A DNA stretch of 64,000 nt. Source: Ornithinibacillus sp. 4-3 (GTDB lineage Bacteria > Bacillota > Bacilli > Bacillales > Amphibacillaceae). The position numbers and the translations under genes are program-made. Positions within the stretch are counted from its first letter, which is position 1, and each line of letters begins with the position of its first letter. The stretch covers positions 2,514,001 through 2,578,000 of the forward strand of contig NZ_CP162599.1 of assembly GCF_040958695.1 (NCBI RefSeq), written 5' to 3'. This document shows positions 19,999 to 47,100 of the stretch, one piece after another. The notes below the pieces were generated by a model. That model had not been told where the DNA came from. It did no database searches and saw only the letters and a program-made list of their open reading frames with translations.

Positions 19999-20035
19999 CT
20001 ATATATGGAAGATGGTTTTCCCTCTATTAGTTCGT

Positions 20036-20365
20036 GTTCAAAAAGGGCGATAAAAAGGACTGTCATCGGTTAAGTACGCAACGTCCTGTTGCAACACCGA
20101 TACTAGTACGTCCTGTACGTCGAAAGTTCAAGGCGACGTTATTTTTACGAACGGACTTGCGCGTGTGGTGGTGACTTCTGTGTTGCCCACAGGACGTGGG
20201 CGATTTTAACAGAAGTTCCTCTCTGCTTTTAAATACGTGAGTATCGGAAAAATGACGTCAACAACTTGCGCGTGATGTGATGACTTCGACGTTCGATACA
20301 GGACGTGTCGGAACTTAGTCGAAGTTCCTCTATTCATCGTGTCATTTTTATTGGACTTTTTGAAC
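20036..20365. repeat. 330-bp structured repeat with inverted ends and four AGGAC-loop hairpins
   Basis: This fills most of the gap between amidase and M20 genes. The ends GTTCAAAAAG (20036-20045) and CTTTTTGAAC (20356-20365) are inverted, and the similarity goes on inward (ATAAAAA). The 10-mer CCTCTATTAG flanks it directly (20021-20030 and 20368-20377). Inside are hairpins at 20078-20092, 20106-20118, 20185-20201 and 20294-20310. Each has the five-base loop AGGAC on one strand (minus for the first two, plus for the last two) and different complementary stems. The last two are nested in outer stems ACTTCTGT/ACAGAAGT and ACTTCGAC/GTCGAAGT. It is richer in GC than its neighbours. No protein is encoded. 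Confidence 0.85.
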
Positions 20366-20417
20366 ATCCTCTATTAGATTATTTTAATTTCACTTATTGA
20401 AGGGAGTATGTATAAAC

Positions 20418-25520: not shown

Positions 25521-25832
25521 ACGAAAAGCGCAGAGCTCCCTTACAGGCTAAAAACGTGACTTCACGAGCACAACGTCCTGCACTAGCACGTCCTATGCGT
25601 CGAAAAACGTAGAGATTGGAGCGGCACAACCGAGATAAAGGAAACATGCCCCTTCAGGGGTATCCAACGTTAGGCTTGAGCCTGGTTTTAGTTGGGCCTC
25701 CTTATAAAACAGAACCGATGTTGACTTATTGTAGGGTGTGACGTGAAATCTCTTAGTTTTTGGCGCTCGGAGCTAGACAGCGCTATCTCTGCCTAAGAAT
25801 TAATTTGTGCAAATCCTTTATACTTTCTTATC
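25520..25832. repeat. Structured repeat, long copy of the 25.6/44.2-kb family
   Basis: It begins at the crcB stop codon with AACGAAAAGCGCAGAG and ends with TATACTTTCTTAT; the same start and end occur at 44155-44357. Three blocks of about 36, 25 and 35 bases are nearly identical in the two copies. AGAGATT (25611-25617) and AATCTCT (25747-25753) can pair, as can flanking GAGCG/CGCTC words, giving a long closed structure. This copy has two extra segments: 45 nt with two ACGTCCT motifs between direct repeats AAAAACGT (25550-25557, 25603-25610), and about 50 nt of hairpins around 25646-25700. No protein is encoded. Confidence 0.8.
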
Positions 25833-29385: not shown

Positions 29386-30687
29386 TTAATCTAATACAAT
29401 TGTTCCTACACCGTCTTTAATATCAATTTTTGTGCCAAAAGGTTCAGACAGCTCTTGTAAATCTTTTAAGATTCTATCTGTTTTCACTAATGTTGGCCAA
29501 CCAATTTTATAACGTGGTTGCTTATATCCTAATTCGATTGGATATAGCTTCACTTCTGTTAATTTATCTCCTTGCATTTTCCATACTGGTACAATGGAAT
29601 CCCAAATTTTTTCGTTCACACCAAAGCCTTTAGTATTATTTTCAGTTCTTGTATCCAGCCCATCTGCAACAGTATGATCATTACCTAAACCATACTTTTC
29701 ATAAAAGTCTGCTGGTAAATGAGTTACTGTTTCATTTTGGAAAATAAAGTTTCCTAAACTATAGAAAATTGGACGTCCATTATAAATCTCAATTCCCCTT
29801 AATACATGGGGTCCATGTCCTACAATGGAATCAGCTCCACCATCGATACATTCTCTTGCAAAAGTTTTAAGGAATTCAGCTGGTACTGATTTATCCTCTC
29901 CTTGCATTTCATGAGCATGAATACTTACTACTACATAATCTGCTTGTCTTTTTGCTTCAGAAATAGATTTTAAAATACGTTTCATATCACGTGGATCTGG
30001 TGAAGTTTCTTTCCCTTCTGGAGATCCTTCAGCAAACACATACTGTCCAAACTCAAATTTCCCGTCTTTTTTCTCGACTACAAAGCCTTCTTTAATGGAC
30101 ATTTTCGTCACTGCATTAATATCCACTGTATCAGCGATTTCTTTCAAGGTTTCTAATTTCTCCTTTGAAATCTTATGCACTGATTTATGGCGTAGTGGGT
30201 TAATACCAGGACGCCCAGACATATCATTTCGTTGATCACCAGCAATCCATGTTTCATGGAAGCTAGAAGTAGCAGCAATTAATGCAACTCGACCAGCTGG
30301 TGTTTCTAAATATCTTGGTGCACTAGCATCTGCTAAATTTTTCCCAACACCTGCATGAACAAATTCATATTCATTTATATATCTTTCTGTCGCTTCAAGT
30401 CCACCATATAAATAATCTAGTGTATGATTATTTGCCCAAGGTAGTAAATTAAAACCGTAAGCTTTAATATCTCTTAGTGCAAGTGGAGAAGTAATAGCCC
30501 AAGTACCACCACTTGCTTGTCCTGGATAGCCTTCAAAGTTATGTGTTGTAATTTCTAAGTTCGTTAAACGAGCATCTGCACTTTTAATTAAGTTTGTTAA
30601 CTCGACAAAAGACTCAGAAGTTGTTGATGGTAATCGTCTAGTAATAAAGCTATCTCCTGTTGCTACAAATGAAATTGTCTGTTCCAT
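29386..30687 (-). CDS. CapA-family protein (metallophosphoesterase-like fold)
   Basis: 433 residues of the CapA/PgsA family (poly-gamma-glutamate synthesis protein fold). Metal-site motifs in order: ATGDSFITRR (8-17), NLEITTHN near 48, WANNHTLDY near 84, SIHAHEMQG near 235, GHGPHVLRGIEIY near 280 and FYSLGNFIF near 295. Unlike PgsA of capsule operons it has no N-terminal membrane anchor, and no pgsBC genes are near. Its place 26 bases after an M20 peptidase gene suggests a hydrolytic role in the same pathway. Confidence 0.84.
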   Translation of the reverse strand: MEQTISFVATGDSFITRRLPSTTSESFVELTNLIKSADARLTNLEITTHNFEGYPGQASGGTWAITSPLALRDIKAYGFNLLPWANNHTLDYLYGGLEATERYINEYEFVHAGVGKNLADASAPRYLETPAGRVALIAATSSFHETWIAGDQRNDMSGRPGINPLRHKSVHKISKEKLETLKEIADTVDINAVTKMSIKEGFVVEKKDGKFEFGQYVFAEGSPEGKETSPDPRDMKRILKSISEAKRQADYVVVSIHAHEMQGEDKSVPAEFLKTFARECIDGGADSIVGHGPHVLRGIEIYNGRPIFYSLGNFIFQNETVTHLPADFYEKYGLGNDHTVADGLDTRTENNTKGFGVNEKIWDSIVPVWKMQGDKLTEVKLYPIELGYKQPRYKIGWPTLVKTDRILKDLQELSEPFGTKIDIKDGVGTIVLD

Positions 30688-32069: not shown

Positions 32070-32688
32070 TGGATAATCCTCCTAATTCAGGGATATTTAA
32101 GACCGTGTGACAACATTAATTGTAAGAATAATTTCCTAGGCAATAATTTAGACTAGATTAGTAATTATCATTAAGAAAATACCGCTTACAAAGCTACAAT
32201 CAAGATGGGAGGAGACAAAAGTATCTTTGATTAGTAGTTCCGAATATAAATGCTAAAATATCCGCTCCGGAAATATACTTCGCTTTCCATGGGCGATTGG
32301 AGAACCTCGACGGACAGGACGTCCTAGTGTTGGCGTTGGTCCTCGTGACGTGACCGACTTTAGCCGACGGGGAGTCTACGTATATTTCCAACACTTTTTT
32401 GTATTTTGTTCGGTTCTTTAAACTCAAAATTCCTTTTGCCCCAACCTCACTACTCTATATAAATCTGAAGTTCAATACTTTCTTAATGGACTAAAAAGTT
32501 AACATGAAATCACAAATTAAGTATAAACGAGCGAAAATCTAGTGTCAATATTGGTCATATTCTTACAATTCTCAAATTATTTCAATCAATAATTCACAAT
32601 TTGTTCAATTTTTATTGTATAATGAAATGGTGATTAAGAAAAATGATTCAATTTCATAAAGATGAAAACACAAGGGAGAGAATCTAGA
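32070..32688. other. Gene-free region between two M20 genes
   Basis: This holds a divergent promoter region about 600 bases long. A weak inverted repeat (ATCAAGAT/ATCTTTGAT) lies near 32191-32232, the repeat at 32269-32389 follows, and the rest is AT-rich. A TATAAT at 32618-32623, 66 bases before the downstream ATG, is a likely -10 for the plus-strand M20 gene, with a poor -35 (TTCACA, 19-base spacer). Confidence 0.5.
32269..32389. repeat. 121-bp Bacillaceae-type intergenic repeat with inverted ends
   Basis: The ends GGAAATATAC (32269-32278) and GTATATTTCC (32380-32389) are a perfect 10-bp inverted repeat. The inner words CGCTTTCCATGGGCG and GGGGAGTCTACG fit a pattern I know as frequent between genes in Bacillus and its relatives (CTTTCC..GGGC ... 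GGAGTCTACG); this is from memory. The centre contains hairpin GGAC-AGGAC-GTCC (32312-32324), the same loop as in the 20-kb repeat. No protein is encoded. Confidence 0.75.
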
Positions 32689-46950: not shown

Positions 46951-46978
46951 TCTATGTAACAAATGGCATAAATTAAAT

Positions 46979-47100
46979 GTTTTCTAGGGTTCCGCAATTT
47001 TTTTGGTCTGGTCCAAGAGAAAACTCACAGCTATAGCTGTGCCACGGAGGGACAAAAGCCTGGGAGAAACTGTTAAACAGTTATCTCTCAGGCTTTTTTA
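46979..47100 (+). ncRNA. Guanidine-I (ykkC) riboswitch with terminator
   Basis: The conserved elements appear in order: CTAGGGTTCCG (46984), TGGTCTGGTCCAAGAGA, a variable hairpin ACAGCTATAGCTGT, then GCCACGGAGGGACAAAAGCC. The last part overlaps a terminator stem (47057-47067 with 47084-47094, one G-U) with T run. Guanidine binding is expected to prevent the terminator and turn on the two SMR genes that follow. The class is certain from motif and context. Confidence 0.96.

Follow-up and report, generated by a model that had tools for sequence, protein, structure and literature searches.

The AGGAC-loop hairpins found in the analyzed DNA of Ornithinibacillus sp. 4-3 (a stretch of 64,000 nucleotides, referred to below as the window) are the opposite-strand view of a known motif, the Bacillaceae-1 RNA (Rfam RF01690), and represent a rediscovery rather than a new class. 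In the RF01690 model, the large hairpin has the tip GUCCU and the small 3′ hairpin the tip AUCCU (RUCCU across copies); AGGAC is thus the complement of the large-hairpin tip. Four of the six hairpins fall in three copies that score above the Rfam gathering cut-off of 35 bits, and the other two are located in degenerate copies scoring below it.

Bacillaceae-1 copies in the window

The first copy (20051..20119, + strand, 56.2 bits) contains the main hairpin 20078-20092 and the small hairpin 20106-20118 and is complete in its 5′ AAGGA and both RUCCU-loop hairpins. The second (20158..20225, − strand, 45.2 bits; Rfam match 20160-20225) and the third (20267..20334, − strand, 49.2 bits) include the main hairpins 20185-20201 and 20294-20310, respectively. 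Both have kept AGGA and the main loop, and their small hairpin is degenerate. The copy carried by the third repeat type (32311..32383, − strand; Rfam match 32311-32379) reaches 23.5 bits with the Rfam model, below the cut-off of 35, and 20.8 bits with our own model R1; it is degenerate except for the intact small hairpin 32312-32324. In a second kind of repeat, the stretch 25542..25599 (+ strand), with an intact small hairpin at 25586-25598, may be a further degenerate copy. Its score of 9.7 bits with our own model is weak when taken alone and no Rfam match was obtained up to an E value of 10, while reading it by eye along L110, where this repeat is better preserved (41.6 bits), supports the assignment. 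The 25.5-kb repeat also includes a second weak Bacillaceae-1-like match (25651-25707, − strand, 17.8 bits with our own model), which lies on the strand opposite to 25542..25599 and contains none of the six hairpins. Elsewhere in the window, a Guanidine-I riboswitch was detected (46973-47068, + strand, 80.8 bits).

The family is described as rRNA-associated with RUCCU loops. Bacillaceae-1 RNA is listed in Table 1 of Weinberg et al. 2010 (PMC2864571), and PMC8208703 reports eight Bacillaceae-1 structures in B. subtilis that were missing from the earlier annotation of this organism. In the literature searched, which included few subscription papers, there was no paper on the MITE context of Bacillaceae-1 or the precision of its junctions.

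All six hairpins of the original prediction are present with the positions and stem pairs given there. The closing pair is C-G in five of them and U-G in one (25586-25598), the second pair is A-U throughout, and the third and fourth pairs agree with the earlier listing. They do not form a single type, however. The large Bacillaceae-1 hairpin contributes its inner stem and tip in three cases (20078-20092, 20185-20201, and 20294-20310), and the other three (20106-20118, 25586-25598, and 32312-32324) are the small 3′ hairpin. Eight AGGAC-loop hairpins with at least four pairs (G-U allowed) occur in the window, whereas 100 dinucleotide shuffles gave 1.44 on average and never more than 6. The two additional ones, at 29813 and 57392, have different stems and look like chance occurrences. 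Neither the word AGGAC in the window (75 observed, 64.7 expected) nor the pattern RYAGGACGTR in the genome (85 sites, 75 for the reversed control pattern) is enriched, and the signal therefore resides in the hairpin and not in the word.

Structure and covariation of the module

The module has a length of about 67 nt. Its 5′ AAGGA is followed first by a long hairpin, which contains an internal loop and has the GUCCU tip, and then by a small hairpin with the RUCCU tip. A covariance model was built from 33 copies and yielded 119 matches (91 distinct) in 100 loci, 95 of relatives and 5 of the own genome. The covariation claimed earlier is strong in this alignment, with a score of 0.594 (0.163 in shuffles, at most 0.151 with slid partners) and 91.5% of the cells paired; for the 65 matches found in the window together with 58 loci of the own genome, the score was 0.356 (0.148 in shuffles). 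These figures are not probabilities, because the structure was used to fit the alignments and their rows are related. The main loop is intact in only 35 of the 65 own-genome matches versus 94 of the 119 in the other set; the copies of the own genome are decaying.

In the copies located in rRNA/tRNA operons, the stems comprise 281 Watson–Crick pairs, 2 G-U, 3 A-C, and no other combinations (remaining copies: 915, 5 G-U, 17 A-C, and 11 other; 18 tRNAs used as control: 282, 12 G-U, 2 A-C, and 10 other). Both strands of the module look about equally constrained. As G-U pairs are nearly absent, wobble asymmetry cannot tell the strand; this test gave no signal even in the operon copies, whose strand is clear. 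Single-sequence folds of three copies were stable on either strand. In the fold of the first window copy, the 5′ AGGAC pairs with the GUCCU of the small hairpin, which consequently does not form.

Copy number and distribution

The search for further copies proposed earlier gave at least 69 RF01690 matches in the own genome at E values up to 0.001, at least 64 of them over the cut-off (150 of 458 candidates scored). With stricter filters and the own genome counted, matches were found in 30 of 41 close genomes (1 to 85 each) and in 25 of 121 genomes sampled across the class. The plasmid and phage collections contained no match to the module. The recurrence in different repeat backgrounds, seen before in three repeats, extends well beyond the window: the flanks of 184 matches from the own and related genomes fall into 25 single-linkage clusters, 11 with at least two members and 14 with a single one (a few of the latter from weak matches). 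Hence, the copies do not belong to one repeat family by descent; confinement to one such family was an outcome that, according to the original prediction, would have refuted it. The interpretation as a structured RNA module thus stands as far as structure, covariation, and multiple backgrounds are concerned; its novelty does not, the family being RF01690. Tandem arrangements were also observed, namely an array of Bacillaceae-1 copies with 145-bp spacing in G033 (L086, 742-1097) and an array in G037 in which large and small Bacillaceae-1 hairpins alternate (L094/L095).

Host repeats

The three clear copies of the window, one on the + and two on the − strand, are located within a single MITE-like element of 342 bp (20030..20371) with the imperfect terminal inverted repeats GTTCGTGTTCAAAAAG and CTTTTTGAACATCCTC. 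It is flanked by the target-site duplication TATTA (20025..20029 and 20372..20376), the offset of which was taken from a scan of paired elements. The ends of this element type are of the GAGGATGTTCAAAAAGTCC type and are accompanied by 5-bp duplications. At least 53 BLAST matches to the 20-kb element were counted in the own genome (40 of 75 candidates scored), and sites resembling the end sequence, with one mismatch allowed, numbered 130 compared with 8 for a control pattern. The own-genome loci examined contain 49 paired elements, 29 of which have an exact 5-bp duplication at a common offset; the same holds for 39 of 72 paired elements in 67 loci of named Oceanobacillus, Pseudogracilibacillus, and Gracilibacillus records; the median duplication offset among those tried was 0. 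The named records sharing the MITE ends are mainly from Oceanobacillus and Pseudogracilibacillus. The elements range from bare inverted ends up to forms with three modules, and the fold of the complete 20-kb element is better than that of its shuffles (z −6.3). In several own-genome loci (L056, L065, and similar ones), bare inverted ends stand back to back; these elements lack an interior, and their core measures just 34-37 bp. Among the 121 paired elements, identified in sequence stretches and not in whole genomes, no autonomous transposon or transposase with the MITE ends was found. Two long candidates for a parent transposon were discarded: the ORFs of L246 are amylase-like and membrane-protein-like as judged by eye, and of its two ends only the right one is genuine, while L299 seems to have no genuine element ends.

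The 32.3-kb copy is carried by a different repeat (32269..32389) with the inverted ends GGAAATATAC and GTATATTTCC. By eye, it resembles the own-genome repeat L109, in which the module is also present, and a repeat of about 106 bp in G013 that is mostly without the module.

Occupied and empty sites

In G013, a search with the joined flanks of the repeat gave 44 matches, 41 of which cross the site without a module. Most of the 29 module-free loci viewed have a mini-hairpin at this position, for example GTGC-GTTA-GCAC, and in the occupied repeats the module stands in place of GTTAGCAC. The arms of the mini-hairpin vary jointly among the G013 loci (L212-L241; GTGC/GCAC, GAGC/GCTC, and AAGC/GCTT) around the similar 4-base loops GTTA, GATA, and GGTA.

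Interruptions of genes by the module were found as well. A PDDEXK_2 transposase gene is split into ORFs of 270 and 106 aa (L077), whereas its paralogue without the module (L181) is a single ORF of 349 aa, identical to the interrupted gene by 99% before and 82% after the site. The insertion adjoins an AAGGA that is also present in the uninterrupted paralogue, and no target duplication was seen. In three loci of G031, the module interrupts an OrfB_IS605-like gene, a family name that rests on the relative L174, and in the own genome one Bacillaceae-1 copy is nested in another (L107 compared with L110). An extra 5S copy in G028 is split by the module between positions 84 and 91, the loop of helix IV. 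In G021 (L120), the module and the 3′ part of 5S are duplicated in tandem, and the truncated 5S copy following the module contains a second, different insert (about 475-535). In the 23S-5S spacer of G017 (L083), about 18 nt (CTAGTTTTGAAGGT.CAT) are repeated on either side of the module.

AAGGA was considered as a general insertion target. It is clean in one case only, the PDDEXK_2 gene, and arguable in the OrfB_IS605-like case, where the comparison is with a relative of 75% identity; it was not seen in the G013 repeat or in the nested copy. In the latter two, the AGGA-type 5′ end belongs to the inserted module itself, which takes the place of a hairpin's 3′ arm. No rule is therefore claimed.

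Placement beside rRNA and tRNA genes

The window copies themselves have no rRNA genes in their neighborhood. Among 146 matches (alignments A3 and A4; 140 from relatives, 6 from the own genome), 35 are situated on loci with rRNA or tRNA genes, 33 of them at most 350 nt from such a gene. All of these 33 lie on the strand of the rRNA or tRNA gene, and so do the two more distant ones. Nineteen of the 33 end no more than 2 nt from the 5′ end of the next tRNA, 5S, or 16S. The 33 copies are not independent events and correspond to about a dozen junction types as judged by eye. The junction varies by genome and may be the 16S leader, the 16S-23S spacer, the 23S-5S region, or the space between two tRNAs: in three rRNA operons of G054 (L309-L311) the module abuts the start of the 16S rRNA model, in L312 and L313 it begins 2 nt past the end of the 23S model, and in G091 all seven matches found lie in rRNA/tRNA operons. 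Since the loci L116-L119 and L121-L170 were checked by ARAGORN and a BLAST search with 5S and 23S ends only, rRNA neighbors may have been missed there. The consistent orientation means that the co-transcribed form carries GUCCU loops and that AGGAC is antisense at these sites.

For matches away from rRNA and tRNA genes, the orientation was compared with that of protein genes. Between co-directional genes, 33 matches had the same and 24 the opposite strand, with 19 in convergent and 2 in divergent positions (one match per locus: 31 same, 20 opposite, 15 convergent, and 2 divergent). This count covers 85 of the 119 matches, those outside rRNA/tRNA loci and ORF calls; it is based on a crude ORF finder and includes near-identical copies. 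A clear strand bias is thus missing at these sites.

Possible origin and role of the module

Taken together, we consider it fairly probable that Bacillaceae-1 is an independently folding, non-coding, and probably selfish RNA module. It would spread chiefly inside MITEs, as their cargo, and its presence between processed RNAs would be tolerated because RNase P, RNase Z, and rRNA maturation would excise it from the precursor, leaving a discrete RNA. A host function, if there is one, would be expected on the GUCCU strand and not on the AGGAC strand. Several observations fit this interpretation less well. There is no clear strand preference beside protein genes (33 same versus 24 opposite), and the near absence of G-U pairs even in operon copies is odd for selection on a single RNA strand; the small excess in the non-operon copies (17 A-C, 5 G-U) leans to the AGGAC strand. 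Furthermore, the 121 paired elements did not include a transposase with the MITE ends, and the operon copies, not being independent, represent roughly a dozen types of junction. Selection against AGGAC hairpins in rRNA could likewise account for the sense bias.

The close spacing at the junctions (2 nt or less in 19 of 33), the exclusive sense orientation, and the confinement of all seven G091 matches to rRNA/tRNA operons would also suit an element of rRNA/tRNA operon processing or assembly, selected to guide cleavage or folding by the 5′ ends of tRNA, 5S, and 16S, with the MITE copies as escaped or decayed cargo. We regard this as unlikely, because many of the sampled genomes also have copies away from rRNA/tRNA genes, 11 of the 41 close and 96 of the 121 class genomes have no match at all, and the junction differs between genomes. 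Similarly doubtful is a gene-less minimal mobile unit of about 58-67 nt, which would insert in a structure-directed manner at the borders or tips of structured RNAs by pairing of its RUCCU loops with AAGGA present there; the proposed targets are the 5′ ends of tRNA and 5S, hairpin apices, and other Bacillaceae-1 copies.

The two protein-based readings of the original prediction fared worse. Binding of CsrA to the GGA loops had already been proposed in 2014 for the reverse complement of Bacillaceae-1, with the strand given as uncertain; according to that publication, the reverse complement matches a CsrA-site model strongly (PMC4333381). In this scenario, transcription yields the AGGAC strand, whose paired GGA-loop hairpins are predicted to bind or titrate CsrA. 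The gene search suggested earlier returned one csrA match in the own genome and csrA in 40 of 41 genomes, and in 24 of the 57 co-directional copies off rRNA/tRNA loci, read-through transcripts would present AGGAC; the slight A-C excess in the copies off these loci points in the same direction. However, none of the 33 operon copies has the GGA-loop orientation on the transcribed strand. All 11 genomes without the module still have csrA, and G006, with five weak module matches, has none. As csrA occurs with or without the module, co-occurrence does not discriminate. In addition, many own-genome copies have lost the main loop, which is intact in 35 of 65 matches. We consider a CsrA role quite improbable. 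Least likely, and already disfavored by the data, is a single-stranded DNA hairpin without RNA role that is recognized by an IS200/IS605 or RAYT (Y1) transposase. The Watson–Crick-only stems would be in accordance with it, as would the PDDEXK_2 gene insertion beside an AAGGA shared with the uninterrupted paralogue, where a target duplication was not seen. Y1 domains were found in 34 of 41 genomes, but G012 and G014, with 4 and 27 module matches, gave no Y1 match, and the module is at the ends of none of 19 Y1 loci. One of these 19, L209, has a copy about 350 bp away; two further matches at Y1 loci were insignificant (14.5 bits with E 0.26 and 12.8 bits with E 0.66), and the 20th locus of the set (L211) is OrfB_IS605-like. 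Y1 elements also differ in their mode of insertion from elements with terminal inverted repeats and 5-bp duplications, the type that hosts the window copies.

Bacillaceae-1 has been a motif without known function since 2010 and was later proposed as an opposite-strand CsrA sponge. That it sits between tRNA, 5S, and 16S genes suggests which strand is relevant and bears on the strand uncertainty expressed in PMC4333381. This placement also predicts a processed RNA of about 67 nt from rRNA operons. The nesting in MITEs implies that the copy number of the family, and perhaps its covariation, partly reflects mobile DNA. Worth keeping, in our view, are the evidence on the strand, the close fit of the module between stable RNAs, and its nested mobility.

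Comparison with known systems

The module agrees with Bacillaceae-1 (RF01690) in sequence, two-hairpin structure, GUCCU/RUCCU loops, and 5′ AAGGA; the window is special in having three copies in opposing orientations within one MITE and two more that are degenerate and below the cut-off. With bacterial MITEs, the host element shares inverted ends, an AT-rich 5-bp duplication, short length, and tens of copies, but it carries nested, exchangeable structured RNA modules, and its parent transposase was not found. REP elements with RAYT (Y1) are likewise short dispersed palindromes, whereas Bacillaceae-1 is not associated with Y1 genes here. If the antisense strand is read, the paired GGA-loop hairpins resemble those of CsrA sponges of the CsrB/CsrC/RsmZ type; in contrast to these, the operon copies have no GGA in the loops of the transcribed strand, and transcription of the AGGAC strand is hypothetical. 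Rickettsia palindromic elements and rRNA intervening sequences are small folded inserts in RNA and protein genes, as is Bacillaceae-1. Their sequences are different, and Bacillaceae-1 is mostly located between mature RNAs rather than inside them.
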